From Pirellula sp. (GTDB lineage: Bacteria > Planctomycetota > Planctomycetia > Pirellulales > PNKZ01), in the NCBI GenBank assembly GCA_013822735.1, contig PNKZ01000007.1, forward strand, positions 124,001 through 188,000: a stretch of DNA of 64,000 nt. Reading direction: 5' to 3'. Made by a program: the position numbers and the translations under genes. The notes under the pieces were generated by a model. That model was not told the DNA's origin. It searched no databases and worked only from the letters and a program-made list of their open reading frames with translations. Of the stretch, positions 28,410 to 54,155 are shown piece by piece. Position 1 is the first letter of the stretch, and the number at the start of each line of letters is the position of its first letter.

Positions 28410-28616
28410 CGTTAGTCCAGTGCCTGGTGGCCGCCGGAGATTCACTTCGTCGGCAAACAGGGAATACCGGTGCAATTCCGGAACGGCCCCGCCGCTGTAA
28501 CCGAGCGATTTGAAGAGCTTTCCCTTTCGTAAGCCATTGTCGATTTCGGGCTAATGCCCGGTCGACGAGAAGGTGGGAAGTGCTCGATGCTCGGAAGTCA
28601 GAAGACCTACCAGCAC
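28410..28616 (+). ncRNA. Cobalamin riboswitch upstream of tonB-like gene
   Basis: The conserved core is visible in order: GTGCCTGGTGGCCGCC, then GGGAATACCGGTGCAATTCC, then the B12 box GAACGGCCCCGCCGCTGTAA (28481-28500), and the 3' element GGAAGTCAGAAGACCTACC. The last pairs with the first (GTGCCTGG with CCAGCAC). These match the AdoCbl-type riboswitch consensus, which represses downstream genes when the vitamin is abundant. The gene it controls is the TonB-like protein about 110 bases downstream. The switching mechanism is not clear. Confidence 0.92.
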
Positions 28617-28726
28617 GTACAACTGCGACGTCGATTGCTCGGGACAATCGCACGCCCTACGACTGGTTTTGGCTCGCTTCCTAACGTCTTTACCGCTCGC
28701 GGCCTCCCTGGGCATCCGCGGGCGAA

Positions 28727-31194: not shown

Positions 31195-31405
31195 AATCCA
31201 ACAAAGTGTCGATTGTGTCAGGCTCCCGGATTTCAGGGAAGCGAAGTGTAAATCCGATTGACGGCGTTCTACCGTCGGCATCGATTGAATCTTCCGCCGC
31301 CCCGCGACTGTAACGGTGACGAAGACCACATAACCACTGACCTGCGCAAGCGGGTTGGGAAGGGTGGTCTGAGGATGACCCGAAGCCAGGATATCTGGTC
31401 CGTGC
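31195..31405 (+). ncRNA. Cobalamin riboswitch upstream of btuB-like gene
   Basis: Consensus parts in order: CAGGGAAGCGAAGTGTAAATCC, the box CCGCCGCCCCGCGACTGTAA (31294-31313), and the 3' element GACCCGAAGCCAGGATATCTGG. Compared with the first riboswitch, the central box is separated from GGGAA by a longer arm (31256-31293) and the 3' arm carries GGGTTGGGAAGGGTGG. It precedes the BtuB-like receptor gene by about 50 bases. The class is confident, while exact boundaries are approximate. Confidence 0.88.
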
Positions 31406-31422
31406 GAGCATAGCCTTTTTGC

Positions 31423-48532: not shown

Positions 48533-49444
48533 ATGACAGTCGACGCCCAGACCGAAGGTCGGTCGGTGCTGCGCGAAATCGATTCCGCGATGGAACCGAT
48601 GCGCCGCAAGCAACGCGATTTGCAAGCCTTTATGGCTTCGCAACTCGAGCGGCTCGAACTGTTGGCCGGCCGTCTCGACGAGCGGGAACGGGAACTTCTC
48701 GAACGGACGGAAACGCTCGCAAAAGAGCGCGCGGCGCTGGAAGAGGAATGGGGGCATCTCGACTCGCTCGTCGAAGCGGCACAATCCAACGCGATGGAGA
48801 TCCGTCAGGAGAAGCAGCGCCTCGAGCAGATGACGCGCGAACAGCACGACGGCCCGCAGGTTCGCGAGCTACGGCGATTGCGCGACGACGTGGAGCAGCT
48901 TTCGCAGGAGCGCCGCATTCTGGAATGCGAACTGGAAGCGTCGCAACGCAAGGTGGGCCAATTCGCCGACGTGGCCGTCGAACTTTCGGAGACGCGAGCC
49001 GAACTGGCCTCGGCACATTCGGAAATCGAACGCATGCGGCGTGAGCCTTCGCGCATCGACGCCGCCGGTCTCGCGGAACTACAACATCGCATTACTACGG
49101 CCCAAGAAGATCGCGATCGCTTGGCGGCCGAGGTACGCAGGCTCAAGCAGCGCGAGACTGAACTCGTCAAACAACGCGACGACGACAATCGCCGCTATAC
49201 GGACGAACGGCTGGAATGGCTGACCGAGTTGCGGTCGCTACGTCGTTCTTTTCAACAAAAGCCGGGCTCCGAATCTCAAGAAGCCCATTCGCCCGCCGCC
49301 GCGCACGTATCGCAATATACGCCGCCCCCTCCTGCTCCGCCGCCGAACGACGATCGACAAATCGACGACGTCTTGAGCCAATTCGAAGCGGTGAAGCGCG
49401 ACCTCGCGCGACATCGCCCGCGCAAGAACAACGAAAAATCTTAG
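48533..49444 (+). CDS. Long coiled-coil protein
   Basis: The 303-residue product is almost wholly coiled coil from residue 10 to 245 (LERLELLAGRLDERERELLE, LRRLRDDVEQLSQERRILE, EVRRLKQRETELVKQRDDD), then a Pro-rich linker (TPPPPAPPPNDD) and a short charged tail with IDDVLSQFEAVKRDLARH. No signal peptide or enzyme motif is seen. The start is weakly supported; the ATG has no clear Shine-Dalgarno. The next gene follows ten bases later, an operon. Confidence 0.62.
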   Translation: MTVDAQTEGRSVLREIDSAMEPMRRKQRDLQAFMASQLERLELLAGRLDERERELLERTETLAKERAALEEEWGHLDSLVEAAQSNAMEIRQEKQRLEQMTREQHDGPQVRELRRLRDDVEQLSQERRILECELEASQRKVGQFADVAVELSETRAELASAHSEIERMRREPSRIDAAGLAELQHRITTAQEDRDRLAAEVRRLKQRETELVKQRDDDNRRYTDERLEWLTELRSLRRSFQQKPGSESQEAHSPAAAHVSQYTPPPPAPPPNDDRQIDDVLSQFEAVKRDLARHRPRKNNEKS

Positions 49445-49454
49445 GAACCCCCGC

Positions 49455-49895
49455 ATGAAGAATGAACGCGGCCGACGGCGGCGAAAGGTCGTCGCTCCTC
49501 AGGAATTGCCACACGTCTTACGCAGCGACGGCGCTCATCGGGAGCCGGCCGCAGCTCGTGGCGGCGCCCAGGGGACGGACGAACTCCGCGATTCGCCGGC
49601 GACGACGCTGCAACTCGGCGATCCGGCCGTGATGGAACGCTTGGAAGAACTCGACGACGTCGTCTTCGAAGCCATCGCCGGCAAAAATTCGGCGATCGAA
49701 CAATTGCAACAGCTCTGGCCGAAGGTGATCGGACGACTGTCGCCAAGTTTGGCCGAGGAGTCGCGCGAGGCCTATTGCCGACATGCCTTGCAAAAATGGC
49801 TCGATTGCACGGAGAACGGCAATTCGCGCAACCCCAAGCTGGCGGTGTCGCTCATGGATGTGTTGGCCGTGCTTCTGGCGCAGCGCGGACGCTAG
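49455..49895 (+). CDS. Hypothetical protein paired with coiled-coil gene
   Basis: A 146-residue protein. Residues 1-50 are Arg-rich and disordered-looking; residues 55-146 are helical and better ordered (VMERLEELDDVVFEAIAG, LQQLWPKVIGRLSPSLAEES, HALQKWLDCTENGNSRNPK, LMDVLAVLLAQRGR). AGGA precedes the ATG. It lies ten bases after the coiled-coil gene, so a shared function is likely, but no family is recognised. Confidence 0.6.
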   Translation: MKNERGRRRRKVVAPQELPHVLRSDGAHREPAAARGGAQGTDELRDSPATTLQLGDPAVMERLEELDDVVFEAIAGKNSAIEQLQQLWPKVIGRLSPSLAEESREAYCRHALQKWLDCTENGNSRNPKLAVSLMDVLAVLLAQRGR

Positions 49896-49927
49896 CATGC
49901 GCTCCGTGTTGCTCAGGAAATCTGCGC

Positions 49928-51055
49928 CTACTTTCCGATCAGTTCGCGAAACCGATCAAAGAGGTAGCTGCTGTCATGAGGGCCCGCCGAGGCTTCGGGA
50001 TGGTACTGCACCGAAAACGCTTGCAGCGTCTTGTGACGCACCCCTTCGATCGTATTGTCGTTGAGATTGCGGTGCGTCACTTCTAGATCACTCGGAAGCG
50101 ACGCTTCGTCGACGGCGAAGCCGTGATTCTGCGAGGTGATCTCGACGATTCCCGTTTCATGGTTCATCACGGGCTGATTCGCGCCCCGGTGACCGAACTT
50201 GAGCTTAAATGTCTTCGCGCCGCAGGCGAGCGACAGCAGTTGATGCCCCAGGCAAATACCGAAAACCGGTTTCTTTCCCAACACGCCCTGGATCGCCTGA
50301 ATCGCGTAGTTGAGCGGTTCCGGGTCGCCGGGACCGTTGGAAAGAAACACGCCGTCGGGATTCGCGGCGAGGATGTCGCCGCTCGTCGCAGTGCCGGGAA
50401 GTATGGTGACGCGGAAATTCCGGTCGCGGAGATATCGCGGAATGTTCCACTTCATGCCGTAGTCGAGCGCCACGACATGCGGCTTGCCGGCATCATCCGA
50501 CGCCGGCTGATCTTTTTCCAGCTTCATCCAATGATTCAAGTTTTCTTGCCATTCGCGCGGCTGCGAGGGCATCACTTCGCGCACAAGATCGCGCCCGACC
50601 AAACCTGGCGATGACTTTGCCTTGGCGACGAGGCTTCGATCGTCCAAGTCGACGGTCGACAGCACCCCCTTCAGCGCACCGGTGATTCGCAACTTGCGAA
50701 CCAAGGCTCGCGTATCGATCCCTTCAATTCCGACGACGTTGTAGCGGCGCAAATAGTCGCCGAGGTCGCCATCCGCGCGAAAATTGCTGACGCGATTGCT
50801 CAATTCGCGAACGACGAAGCCCGCCAAGTGCGGCTTCTGACTCTCGACGTCTTCCGCATTCACGCCGTAGTTGCCGATTTGCGGATAGGTCATCGTGACG
50901 ATCTGCCCTCGATAGCTCGGGTCGGTCAGAATCTCTTGATAACCGGTCATCGACGTATTGAAGCAGACTTCGCCGTCGACTTCACCGTCGGCGCCGATCG
51001 AAGTGCCGGTGAAAACAGTGCCGTCTTCCAACGCCAGTTTGGCCGCTTGAGGCAT
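49928..51055 (-). CDS. carA: Carbamoyl-phosphate synthase small (glutaminase) subunit
   Basis: The 375-residue product releases ammonia from glutamine for carbamoyl phosphate in pyrimidine and arginine synthesis. The N-terminal domain has LEDGTVFTGTSIGADGEVDG and TGYQEILTDPSYRGQIV. The C-terminal class I amidotransferase has the Cys nucleophile in GICLGHQLLSLACG near residue 265 and the His-Glu pair in QYHPEASAGPHD. Length is normal. GAGGGA lies upstream of the ATG at 51055. The carB gene is not in this window. Confidence 0.96.
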   Translation of the reverse strand: MPQAAKLALEDGTVFTGTSIGADGEVDGEVCFNTSMTGYQEILTDPSYRGQIVTMTYPQIGNYGVNAEDVESQKPHLAGFVVRELSNRVSNFRADGDLGDYLRRYNVVGIEGIDTRALVRKLRITGALKGVLSTVDLDDRSLVAKAKSSPGLVGRDLVREVMPSQPREWQENLNHWMKLEKDQPASDDAGKPHVVALDYGMKWNIPRYLRDRNFRVTILPGTATSGDILAANPDGVFLSNGPGDPEPLNYAIQAIQGVLGKKPVFGICLGHQLLSLACGAKTFKLKFGHRGANQPVMNHETGIVEITSQNHGFAVDEASLPSDLEVTHRNLNDNTIEGVRHKTLQAFSVQYHPEASAGPHDSSYLFDRFRELIGK

Positions 51056-51199
51056 TTCTTGAGCTTCCCTCGCCGTGAGTTTTTTCCAAATGTGCGGATT
51101 GCCACCGCAATACAAAACGGACTGAATCGACGGATCGTTTCGAACGTTTCACTTGTACGTTCCGCCCGCGACGTTTATTCCGTCACTTGCCGAAAACGA

Positions 51200-51357
51200 A
51201 CGAAGTTCCCGCACGTCTCCCGGCCGGATACCTAAAGTCGCCTGACTCCGAGACCGATAGCAAATGGTACGGCTGTGGGTCTCCGGACGCAGGTAAAACT
51301 GTTTTCGGGCAGCCTTGGGAGGGTCTTTGCCCCGGCGAGCAAAGGCCCTCCTTTTTT
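51200..51357 (+). ncRNA. Candidate free-standing structured small RNA
   Basis: The plus strand here has a nested stem (CCTG..CCGAGACC around 51242-51255 with GGTCTCCGG..CAGG around 51279-51293) and ends in a classical terminator: 13-bp stem 51318-51330 with 51339-51351 and then TTTTTT. No plus-strand gene lies upstream or downstream, since carA and the aminotransferase are both on the minus strand. It does not match tRNA, tmRNA, 4.5S, RNase P or a riboswitch class I could test by eye. The 5' end is unknown; the start given is approximate. Confidence 0.5.
51318..51357 (+). terminator. Rho-independent terminator without an upstream plus-strand gene
   Basis: A 13-bp stem with one wobble pair and an 8-base loop is followed by six T residues. 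It is one of the clearest terminators in the window and implies a plus-strand transcript in the carA upstream region. Confidence 0.85.
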
Positions 51358-51543
51358 ATTGCGCTCGGATCGAGCATGCGGGCATCGCGGCGAACCGCGG
51401 CACCCTATCGACCCCTTCGGCTGCGACGAATTCCGCAGATTATATCGTTCCAGCCTGCGTTCGCATAGCGGCGGAAGACGCTCGTGACACGGCGAAAGTT
51501 GCGGAATCCGCCAATCGCGGAAACATCCGACGATTTTCTTAAA

Positions 51544-51560
51544 GCCGGTTATGAACCGGC
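51544..51560 (-). terminator. Hairpin across the aminotransferase stop codon
   Basis: GCCGGTT (51544-51550) and AACCGGC (51554-51560) form a perfect 7-bp stem containing the stop, followed on the minus strand by TTTAAGAAAA. It is short but well placed. Confidence 0.5.
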
Positions 51561-52865
51561 GGTCGGCGTCGAGGATTCTTCGGGCGACGAATCATTCGGC
51601 GACTCGTCCGACACGGTAATAGGCGAGCCTTTACCGTCGGTTCCTAAGCAGCGGGCAATCTGCCTCAACGCTTGCTTTAGTCGGCTTTCGTTTTCCACCA
51701 AAGCCATACGCAAATAGCCTTCGCCAGCAGGACCAAAACCGGTGCCGGGGCTGGCCGCGACCCCCCCTTCCTCCAACAGCTTCATGGCGAACTGCAACGT
51801 ATCCATCTTCGCCAAGTACTGTTCCGGAATCTTCGCCCACACGAACATGCCGGCCCGCGGCACGGGCACGGTCCATCCCATGCGGCGTAGTCCGTCGACC
51901 ATGACGTCGCGGCGCCGTTGGTAAAGCTTTGCTTGCGATTCGACGGCGGCTTCCGTGTTGCGCAGCGCCATGATCGCCGCGATCTGAATCGCTTGGAACA
52001 TGCCGTAATCGTAGTAGGCCTTGATCGTCGCCAGGGCCTTGAGCATTTCGGCATTGCCGCAGGCGTAGCCGACACGCCAGCCGGCCATGTTGTAGCCTTT
52101 GCTCATCGTCGTGAATTCGACGCCGACGTCGATGGCGCCGGGCGCGGCTAAGAAGCTTGGCGGAACGTAGCCGTCGAACGACACGTCGGCGTAGGCCGAA
52201 TCGCTAATGACCATGAATCCGTAACGCTTGGCGAGCTTCACAATTTCCACGAAAAACTGCGGATCGACCGTCACACCGCTCGGGTTGTGCGGATAGTTGA
52301 CGATCAGCAACTTCGGCCGGGGATGCAGGTGTTGGCACGTGTAAGCGATGTTCGATAGGAACTTCTCGCTATCGGCGACTTCCAGCGTAATGCAATTGCC
52401 CGAGGCCAAGGCGACCGCAAATACGTGCGCCGGGAAGTACGGCGCCGGCACAATCGCCGTGTCGCCGGGTCCCATCAAGGCCAAGCACATGTGGCTGAAG
52501 CCTTCTTTCGAGCCGAGGCAGACGACCACTTCCTTTTCCGGGTCGATGCGCACGCCGTACTTGCGTAGGTACTTGCCGGCAACTTCGCGTCGTAGGTTCA
52601 ATATACCGATCGATTGGCTGTAGCCGTGGTTACGCGGATCGCGGGCCGCTTCGACGAGCTTCTCGATTACCAATTCGTGCGGCGGTTCCGACGGATTCCC
52701 CATCCCCAAATCGATGACGTCTTCGCCGGCTCGGCGCTTTTGGTAAAGCACGCTGTTGATACGTGCGAAGAGATACGCCGGCAACCGACTCATGCGTTCG
52801 GCAGGCGTGATCTTGAACGGCTCGCCGGCAGGGCCGGACATCGTGGGGTCGTTGGGCGTATTCAT
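51549..52865 (-). CDS. Class I/II PLP aminotransferase (AlaC / LL-DAP-aminotransferase-like)
   Basis: The 438-residue enzyme has PEP-like NPSEPP near residue 60, [13 protein letters not shown], the Asn contact in [12 protein letters not shown] near residue 190, [12 protein letters not shown] and the PLP Lys in [16 protein letters not shown] near residue 255. This motif set is shared by E. coli AlaC and by DAP aminotransferase-like proteins, so alanine synthesis or amino-acid transamination is likely. The C-terminal 35 residues are Ser/Glu/Pro rich and not conserved in the family. The start at 52865 has only a weak ribosome-binding site. Confidence 0.88.
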
Positions 52866-53033
52866 TGTCTCGAAATCGGCTAACGCTGTGGGGGTGGCTA
52901 ACGCCTTGCGGCGTGGGTCGCCGAGCAAGTCGCGTAATCTTCTAGATTACACGTTTTGTCCTCAATTGGGAAACACGACACGCCTCGGAAGTTCGCGAGC
53001 GCGGCCAGTTCAAGTACCTGAAAATTCCGCCCC

Positions 53034-54155
53034 TTACTCGATAGGCGGCTGACTGCCGGCAATCAGTCCGCGGCGGACGGCCACGACGACGGCGATCAAG
53101 GCGCCCGTACAAACGAAGAGAAACAAGAGGAAAGTCCCCAACCCGCCCACGATCGACGCCGTGACGTGCATCGACGCGTATTGATTGAGATCGATCGTGG
53201 AGGTTCGCCTAGCCTCGCGGAGTGCCGTTGCCGAGCCTACCGCTCCAACGACCGCCAAGCACAAGAAGGTGAGCGTCCGTCCGTCGATCCAGGCGCGCTG
53301 CCACACCCGGCGCCAAATTACTGCCTGCACGATGATTCCCAGCGTTGCCCCGGCGAGGTACGGCCAAACGTCGCGTGCCGTGAGACGTTGCCGAATCGGC
53401 TCCTCAAGGAATACGAAGTAGCCGCCGCCGGCGAATACCGACGCAACCAATCCTCCGAGCGCGAGAACCGCAAGCGTGCGAATCGCCGGATCCGTGACGG
53501 GGTCCGGCGCCGCGTTTTCGTCACGGCGCACGAAGCCCGTCGACCAAAACTGCGCGATCAGGGCAGCGGCCAACACCGGAAAAGCGCCGACGTACCACAC
53601 GGTCAACCGCGGCATCAGTTCCGGATCGCGATAGAACCAGCGGTTCGAGCCGTACACTTCCGTCCAAACTTCTTGACCGCGCGTACTGAGCAGATGGTTC
53701 TCGGTAAACGACCAAGCAACGAACGCAAAGCAGCACAAAATGCCCACCGAAACCACGGCCCGTACCCAGGCGGAAAAGTGATGCCAGCGTTTGCTCTTCT
53801 GCAGGTAGAGCAGATAGAACGCCGCGATCAGCACCGGCAGGATCGCCATCCAACGGTGAAACAGCAACAGGTTGGCGGTGTAGAACGGGCGTTGATAGAG
53901 AATCTGCAGAAACAACAGCGGAGCGACGGCCGCCGTGATGGTCACGCCCAAGGCAAACGGCATCCAATCGCGCAGCACCTCCACGATCGGCCGCTGCGCA
54001 AGTGCCGGGCCGCGCAGCGCTTCCCAAACTCCGAGGAAGGCCAAATACGTGGAACCGGCCAAGACGTAGTTCATCGGCAAGACGTGCAGCACCAGGGTTG
54101 CTCCATAGAGCACCAAGTAAAACACGGTCTGCGTCGGGTAATCGAACGGATACAT
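53034..54155 (-). CDS. Membrane subunit of cytochrome bd-like oxidase unit
   Basis: The 373-residue product has about nine membrane segments. The opening VFYLVLYGATLVLHVLPMNYVLAGSTYLA has a His in the first helix, as in the bd-type subunit I N-terminus. It contains no CxxCH motif. It follows the CydA-like gene by seven bases on the same strand, so the two are almost certainly co-translated. It may take the place of CydB or be a second CydA-like four-helix domain; which is not decidable by eye. Confidence 0.7.
   Translation of the reverse strand: MYPFDYPTQTVFYLVLYGATLVLHVLPMNYVLAGSTYLAFLGVWEALRGPALAQRPIVEVLRDWMPFALGVTITAAVAPLLFLQILYQRPFYTANLLLFHRWMAILPVLIAAFYLLYLQKSKRWHHFSAWVRAVVSVGILCCFAFVAWSFTENHLLSTRGQEVWTEVYGSNRWFYRDPELMPRLTVWYVGAFPVLAAALIAQFWSTGFVRRDENAAPDPVTDPAIRTLAVLALGGLVASVFAGGGYFVFLEEPIRQRLTARDVWPYLAGATLGIIVQAVIWRRVWQRAWIDGRTLTFLCLAVVGAVGSATALREARRTSTIDLNQYASMHVTASIVGGLGTFLLFLFVCTGALIAVVVAVRRGLIAGSQPPIE

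Follow-up and report, generated by a model that had tools for sequence, protein, structure and literature searches.

A conserved planctomycete small RNA with a sigma28-type promoter, predicted to lie antisense to the carA leader in most Pirellulales

In Escherichia coli, UhpU, MotR, FliX, and FlgO are sigma28-dependent small RNAs (sRNAs), and the cited passages describe UhpU and MotR/FliX as tying flagella to metabolism or ribosome synthesis (PMC10578931). FliA-dependent sRNAs are likewise described in Campylobacter, namely CJnc170/FlmR (PMC11187230) and CjNC1/CjNC4, with 5' UTRs as the predicted targets of CjNC1/4 (PMC4626219). In Listeria, an excludon sets the P1 promoter of mogR against flagellar export genes (PMC7154746). 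As for planctomycetes, Rhodopirellula-1 is a candidate structured RNA motif tabulated for Proteobacteria and Planctomycetes (Weinberg et al. 2010, PMC2864571); that table entry aside, no described Pirellulales small RNA was present among the matches listed from the open-access literature.

The RNA considered here lies between carA and an aminotransferase gene in a window of 64,000 nucleotides, the whole stretch of Pirellula sp. DNA that was analysed. By comparison of related loci, the feature is a small RNA in its own right, encoded on the plus strand and equipped with a predicted promoter and a terminator; an independent small RNA had been one of two readings offered in an earlier note made from the letters of the window, and it is borne out by the conservation of the RNA in two classes and by its presence at loci without carA.

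Locus, fold, and strand of the RNA

The predicted transcript runs from 51266 to 51357 on the plus strand (model match 89.6 bits) and is about 92 nt long, its start being set 6-8 bases past the -10 element, with an uncertainty of a few bases, and its end being taken from the T run. The start coordinate of 51200 assigned earlier was wrong and should be about 51233 for the promoter or about 51266 for the RNA. On one side lies carA (49928-51055, minus strand), which encodes the small chain of carbamoyl-phosphate synthase (PF00988, E 7e-55; PF00117, E 5e-54) and whose start at 51055 was set from homologues, the ORF list beginning instead at a TTG at 51115. On the 3' side, an aminotransferase class I/II gene (51549-52928, minus strand; PF00155, E 3e-59) converges on the RNA, although this right-hand neighbour varies by genome, an aminotransferase being found there in 55 of 129 loci. 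As had been claimed before, no credible plus-strand gene flanks the terminator on either side, carA and the aminotransferase gene both being on the minus strand; an ORF of 135 codons that runs antisense to carA on the plus strand and ends at 51235 is a mechanical entry of the ORF listing.

The 3' part of the RNA (51317-51357) comprises hairpin 2 and the T run, which comparison identifies as an intrinsic terminator on the plus strand (99.2% of cells paired). Its hairpin (51317-51352) has 14 pairs and a CGGCGA loop (51333-51338), and six T residues follow at 51352-51357, the first of them within the stem, in agreement with the strong plus-strand terminator recognised earlier. The stem is the longest of 6 terminator-like sites in 49000-53500; since the number of such sites is not above that in shuffles (6 vs a mean of 5.2), the count by itself proves nothing. 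Hairpin 1 (51271-51314, plus strand) has a variable tip and two covarying stems in 100 sequences: an outer stem GGCUGU/GCAGCC (51271-51276 with 51309-51314; 96.2% paired, both-side changes in 4 of 6 pairs) and an inner stem CCGGA/UUCGG (51283-51287 with 51304-51308; 91.7% paired, both-side changes in 5 of 5). In hairpin 2, all 12 pairs show both-side changes in 100 sequences. Between the two stems of hairpin 1 lies an unpaired and nearly invariant GGGUCU bulge (51277-51282), a candidate seed for pairing or protein binding: in 57 sequences of two groups, its GGG and C are invariant and both U residues are kept in at least 90%, while the CGGCGA loop is invariant in 57/57. The bulge and the loop constitute the conserved unpaired, seed-like elements of the RNA. 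The predicted transcript folds at a z-score of -3.2 (1 of 200 shuffles as good), and when folded alone it adopts both conserved hairpins and leaves GGGUCU unpaired.

In alignment A2, which contains 100 of 107 non-redundant Pirellulales loci and was fitted to the model, 96.8% of cells are standard pairs and the covariation score is 0.385, compared with 0.213 (sd 0.006) in shuffles; when the structure is slid along the alignment, paired cells drop to 39-54%. Both-side changes occur in 21 of 23 pairs of A2, whose pairing and covariation counts are favoured by the fitting, in 13 of 23 pairs of the unfitted MAFFT alignment A1 (which excludes L003, at a contig end), and in 18 of 23 pairs of alignment A3, which holds both groups. 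Covariation is thus strong, and the objection anticipated in the earlier note, that it might be lacking, falls away. The A2 cells comprise 2018 Watson-Crick, 201 G-U, 13 A-C, and 60 other combinations; because the 201 G-U pairs would be mismatches on the opposite strand, selection acts on the plus-strand RNA.

One structural claim made earlier fares differently. The nested stem CCGAGACC/GGTCTCCGG proposed just upstream of the terminator is not kept by relatives as judged by eye, and CCGAGACC (51248-51255) overlaps the -10 element CCGATA (51254-51259), 5' of the predicted start. This stem forms only in the fold of a longer stretch (51185-51358) that includes promoter sequence, and a shorter GGCCC/GGGTC complementarity seen by eye in many relatives again involves the promoter. 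When the nested stem is left out, GGGUCU is free to form the unpaired, nearly invariant bulge. A small coding gene was also considered and rejected, as the distances that separate the invariant blocks fall about equally into the three classes modulo 3 (46/36/35 of 117), and the RNA is therefore not coding.

In agreement with the statement that no known RNA family could be recognised, the Rfam 15 check of the window gave nothing over the gathering threshold at the RNA; sub-threshold matches there (E <= 10) are at chance level, the best being BjrC68 with 16.7 bits against 39. Among 14 loci of relatives, Rfam 15 matches fell elsewhere and none at the RNA. 6S RNA (RF00013) was ruled out, the window's own genome having no match at E <= 10, whereas the control set of 14 genomes gave matches in 8, of which 4 were over the cut-off. 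The only Rfam matches of the window lie elsewhere in it and are two cobalamin riboswitches (RF00174) on the plus strand, one at 28411-28628 (81.7 bits) and the other, some 2.6 kb away, at 31214-31416 (61.9 bits).

Distribution and arrangement with carA

A DNA search with 51140-51360 gave a single match in each of 32 genomes out of 57 related ones. Most of 30 aligned loci share one plus-strand layout: TAAAGTC and CCGATA, separated by about 14 bases, then after some 10 bases GGCUGUGGGUCUCCGG, a hairpin tip that varies, ..CGGACAGCC, and, past a short linker, the terminator hairpin with its CGGCGA loop and a T run. Covariance model R1, built from 29 sequences, matches 128 of 296 Pirellulales genomes, with one copy each except for a second full copy in G102 and weak second matches in G020 and G069. 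At the level of the class, R1 matches 45 of 297 genomes, every one of them in Pirellulales, and in a phylum-wide draw it matches 6 of 246, including one genome clearly of another class (G565, 58.5 bits) and a candidate at 30 bits (G525). A pattern scan of named genomes yielded at least 119 stretches, 80 of which were examined; a member of the Pirellulales, Blastopirellula marina DSM 3645, is among the carriers, as are MAGs of Pirellulales and Thermoguttaceae and MAGs of Phycisphaerales, Sedimentisphaerales, and Tepidisphaeraceae. Seven pattern matches outside Planctomycetota (Arthrobacter twice, Brevundimonas, Rhodocyclales, Enhygromyxa, Acidimicrobiia, and Dormiibacterota) showed no promoter or terminator by eye and were taken as chance.

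G565 matches a Sedimentisphaerales MAG (L351) in the sequence of the RNA and of the region upstream of it, and Sedimentisphaerales is an order of the class Phycisphaerae, hence the class name used here. Model R2, built from both groups, matches 58 of 169 genomes of this class, some of them by construction because R2 was built partly from Phycisphaerae-type loci. Among the 21 Phycisphaerae-type loci examined, the class was taken from database naming for 15 and from the short-hairpin form of the RNA for 6; 2 of 10 loci from the R2 search duplicate loci already among the 21. By these comparisons, the RNA family is one that spans Pirellulales and Phycisphaerae. Around some Phycisphaerae-type loci, other features were observed. 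The genes converging on the RNA in L352, L353, and L348 look alike by eye, and in L353 and L348 the converging gene has a PilZ domain (PF07238), a domain known from flagellar brakes. In a Phycisphaerales MAG, two Acido-Lenti-1 matches (RF01687) in opposite orientation lie about 1.4 kb from the RNA (L301:5394-5577).

Absence from part of the Pirellulales was examined in a sample of 40 of the 168 RNA-negative genomes, of which 39 gave a CarA match and 30 provided loci that were read. By nhmmer and by eye, 28 of these 30 carA loci are without the RNA, one (G090) holds a copy missed by the model, which makes 128/296 a lower bound, and one (G011) holds a degenerate form. In the degenerate form, upstream of carA in L263, GGCTGTGGAT replaces GGCTGTGGGTCT and the terminator is without the CGGCGA loop. 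L202 (G180), in which nhmmer did not locate the RNA, was excluded before the counts.

In 121 of 129 located Pirellulales loci, a divergent carA adjoins the RNA. The 80 examined pattern-scan stretches include 52 of Pirellulales type, 42 of them with a divergent carA; of the other 10, six have at most 244 bases on the carA side and four are well flanked. A predicted carA promoter lies on the minus strand at 51439-51468 (-10 TATAAT from 51444 down to 51439, CTA at 51468-51466), as judged by comparison of the loci. A minus-strand -10 element with 5-6 matches to TATAAT stands within 100 nt past the RNA terminator in 78 of 116 carA-linked loci, compared with 26/116 for the plus-strand control of that stretch, while 38/116 show no such minus-strand element; over the 150 nt that adjoin the RNA towards carA, -10 elements are not in excess (9/116 vs 10/116 on the other strand). 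When 75 sites were aligned on the -10, a CTA for which they had not been selected appeared 24 bases upstream (C 91%), so that the predicted carA promoters have TATAAT but carry a conserved CTA where TTGACA would stand. As the recognisable carA promoter is beyond the RNA terminator, the carA leader is expected to cover the RNA in antisense from end to end; in the window, the position of the promoter predicts an mRNA 5' leader of about 375 nt (51056-51432, minus strand), antisense to the entire RNA. The earlier suggestion of an antisense relation to the carA leader is thus probably right for most Pirellulales, in which the predicted promoters are placed such that the two transcripts would overlap (78/116).

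The association is nevertheless not universal. Five Pirellulales loci with good flanks (G101, G133, G188, G083, and G088) are without carA and keep the RNA and its T run; the promoter pattern of the RNA is present in 4/5, the fifth (G101) having TGAA instead of TAAA, and a minus-strand carA-type promoter is found in 0/5. L184 was placed in neither carA group, since its left flank ends before carA could be seen; its minus-strand -10 scores 5. Among Phycisphaerae-type loci, the RNA stands beside carA in 3 of 21 and in 2 of 8 further distinct loci, i.e., 5/29, leaving 24 of 29 distinct loci without carA. Antisense coupling to carA therefore cannot be the general function of the family, and the retention of the RNA at loci without carA marks it as an independent unit. 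By this comparison, the link between the RNA and carA is old, yet not obligatory.

These data bear on two other explanations. The element might be a cis-acting carA leader on the minus strand, either a riboswitch or an attenuator, with the plus-strand terminator and promoter look-alike as by-products. Such a reading would agree with the conservation of carA as a neighbour (121/129, and also 5/29 distinct Phycisphaerae-type loci) and with the minus-strand carA-type promoter upstream in 78/116 loci, which places the element in the leader. It was rejected as highly improbable on the basis of the G-U/A-C asymmetry (201 to 13), which favours the strand opposite to carA, and of the five carA-free loci, where RNA and T run persist with the minus-strand promoter gone and the plus-strand promoter pattern kept in all but G101; the T run is 3' of the hairpin on the plus strand only, the RNA occurs without carA in most Phycisphaerae-type loci (24/29), and no Rfam leader of carA matches it, a match that the earlier note had regarded as decisive against an independent RNA. 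Alternatively, the RNA could act purely in cis, its sole job being to silence the carA leader or to be silenced by it, without targets in trans. The predicted full nesting of the RNA within the leader in 78/116 carA-linked loci is what this would entail, and the divergent pair is deeply conserved, including in a Sedimentisphaerales genome. A purely cis-acting antisense RNA, however, would not require its own sequence to be conserved, whereas the bulge and the loop hardly vary across two groups, and the family is kept away from carA in 24/29 Phycisphaerae-type and five Pirellulales loci, making this explanation quite doubtful.

Promoter type and flagellar genes

A feature missed in the earlier note is a sigma28/FliA-type promoter of the RNA, located by pattern scan at 51233-51259 on the plus strand (-35 TAAAGTC at 51233-51239, -10 CCGATA at 51254-51259), in which 17 bases separate TAAA from CCGATA. 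In the whole genome to which the window belongs, TAAAGTN{14,16}CCGATA has 2 matches and the control 0; one match is at the RNA and the other is on C8 without an evident gene. The sigma28 consensus is not enriched across this genome (7 vs 10 in the control). The pattern T[ACT]AA-N16-20-CGAT[AG], 8-12 bases before GGCUG, occurs in 107 of 123 loci from Pirellulales and in 24 of 31 loci of Phycisphaerae type, or in 106/122 and 22/29 when identical upstreams are counted once, and is absent from 16 and 7 distinct upstreams, respectively; on the opposite strand it is found in 0/123 and 0/31, and in shuffles at 0.2% and 0.5%. The Pirellulales count (n=123) omits L203, L194, L193, L195, and L118, which are weak or partial, and L179, a second copy with a short flank. 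The regular expressions used for promoters were widened after the first scans, and the shuffles of RNA upstreams, flagellin upstreams, and leaders preserve base content only.

The sigma28/FliA consensus of E. coli is TAAA-N15-GCCGATAA. The -35/-10 spacing at the RNA exceeds it by 1-2 bases, a difference shared by the flagellin sites of the order. Flagellin upstreams of at most 700 nt, one per genome from the 86 genomes having both the RNA and flagellin, contain T[ACT]AAG-N13-18-CGAT[AG] in 36 of 48 cases (29 of the 40 fetched for this comparison and 7 of the 8 carried over from an earlier scan) and lack it in 12; the antisense strand gives 1/48 and shuffles 2.3%. The earlier scan, with 350 nt, a narrower pattern, and mostly RNA-negative genomes, was positive in 10 of 29 flagellin loci, with 0 on the antisense strand. 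On the strength of this comparison, the promoter type of the RNA is sigma28/FliA, and the RNA is predicted to be expressed and to depend on FliA. In the RNA promoters, CGAT is mostly preceded by C; in the flagellin promoters, the preceding base is T, C, A, or G. A co-drift of this base between RNA and flagellin promoters within one family was considered and dropped because the flagellin base varies in other families too.

Flagellin was found in 152 of 296 genomes: 86 have both the RNA and flagellin, 42 the RNA only, 66 flagellin only, and 102 neither (Fisher p 2e-6, the genomes being related). This co-occurrence is loose, and kinship alone could explain the excess; as the tie is only weak, the RNA is not claimed as a marker of flagellated genomes. 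FliA_WhiG matches over the cut-off are present in 278/296 genomes, RNA carriers or not, and are therefore non-discriminating, with about 6 of 128 RNA carriers having none as read from E-values. FlhA is over the cut-off in 154/296 genomes and, with weaker matches included, in 282/296, too widespread to discriminate, and it was dropped as a proxy for flagella. In the window's own genome, FlhA and FliA were found and PF00669 flagellin gave no match, so that either the RNA has persisted beyond the loss of flagellin or the assembly lacks the flagellin gene; the sigma gene of this genome lies near flhA, and the genes separating the two were recognised by eye as flhF- and flhG-like. At G000:C21:18000-31000 (L115), flhA and fliA were observed close together although the genome, one of the 42 RNA carriers lacking flagellin, gave no PF00669 match, which may represent either a flagellin-less export apparatus or an assembly loss.

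The promoter might instead belong to another alternative sigma factor, such as an ECF factor or a second FliA/WhiG-like factor, in which case the RNA would stand outside the flagellar regulon. This would be in line with the 42 of 128 RNA genomes without flagellin, with the 5-11 FliA_WhiG model matches per genome of the order, with the spacing beyond that of E. coli, and with the different preferences for the base before CGAT at RNA and flagellin sites. We regard it as unlikely, given that a like element precedes the flagellin genes of the same genomes (36/48, antisense 1/48) and that FliA is over the cut-off in 278/296 genomes.

Proposed function and comparison with known systems

Taken together, the RNA is likely a sigma28-dependent regulatory RNA that acts in trans through its invariant motifs and is antisense-coupled to carA in most Pirellulales. 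When sigma28 is active, that is, in the motile, flagella-building phase, the plus-strand RNA of about 92 nt would be made and ended by its own terminator, and its GGGUCU bulge and CGGCGA loop would bind mRNAs or a protein in trans. In most Pirellulales, the whole RNA is also predicted to be antisense to the leader of the carA mRNA, and the two transcripts would exclude or destroy each other through duplex formation or head-on transcription, thereby coupling the synthesis of carbamoyl phosphate, and with it that of pyrimidines and arginine, to the motile/sessile switch. The targets and the direction of regulation are likewise proposals.

Rather than pairing with mRNAs, the RNA could be a protein-binding sponge or scaffold; CsrB/RsmY RNAs, for example, titrate CsrA. 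The presence in each hairpin of an unpaired motif that hardly varies would fit this, as would the finding that complements of the bulge or the loop are not enriched in the 36 flagellin leaders tested. However, each motif is single, no repeated unpaired GGA loops of the CsrA type are seen by eye, and a single pair of motifs is equally compatible with a seed, so that this remains the less favoured reading, with a small but appreciable chance of being correct. The flagellin leaders of the order, for example at L216, L219, and L222, seem to be about 210-400 nt long, and their final stretch ahead of the ribosome site looks similar in several genomes.

Building on the sigma28-dependent, trans-acting reading, a wider proposal, which we advance tentatively and would not yet rely on, is that a phylum-deep sigma28 RNA of Planctomycetia and Phycisphaerae reports motility to metabolism in trans and that in Pirellulales it has become a mutually exclusive antisense partner of carA, surviving the loss of flagellin; the swarmer/sessile switch of these budding bacteria would then be tied to the supply of nucleotides and arginine. 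The flagellar-type promoter of the RNA and its predicted antisense position to carA suggest a link between swimming and the synthesis of building blocks, and the RNA would offer a reason for the predicted long carA leader in Pirellulales. With Blastopirellula marina DSM 3645, a carrier that is in culture, it becomes testable how budding bacteria connect motility with growth metabolism. To our knowledge, a small RNA with a seed-like bulge kept across two classes is unusual.

With respect to described planctomycete motifs, the present RNA was compared with Rhodopirellula-1 at the level of its table entry, in which the motif is marked 'y' in a column taken as cis-regulatory and no Rfam accession stands alongside (PMC2864571); the two may or may not be identical. 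The predicted arrangement with carA resembles the Listeria excludon in that a long 5' leader overlaps and antagonises an opposite unit and in that one promoter is of an alternative sigma type; it differs in that the overlapped unit is an independent structured RNA instead of coding genes, that the alternative sigma factor would drive this RNA instead of the long leader, and that the overlap is predicted (PMC7154746, cited passages). CJnc170/FlmR and CjNC1/CjNC4 of Campylobacter are small RNAs under FliA, as is predicted for the planctomycete RNA, whereas an antisense link to carA is unmentioned in the cited passages on them (PMC11187230, PMC4626219); CjNC1/4 are described as identical in 37/44 nt and are thus shorter than the planctomycete RNA (PMC4626219). 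UhpU, MotR, FliX, and FlgO of E. coli share with it the class of a flagellar-sigma promoter but are described as UTR-derived and Hfq-binding, unlike the free-standing planctomycete RNA (PMC10578931); sequence comparison with them consists of the Rfam scans, in which not all of them may be modelled. In the same source, the E. coli sRNAs are assigned to some Enterobacteriaceae, the motR promoter extending more widely in proteobacteria, while the planctomycete RNA occurs in two classes (PMC10578931). As far as the cited passages go, the sigma28-dependent sRNAs of E. coli and Campylobacter are therefore described from narrower groups than the planctomycete RNA.
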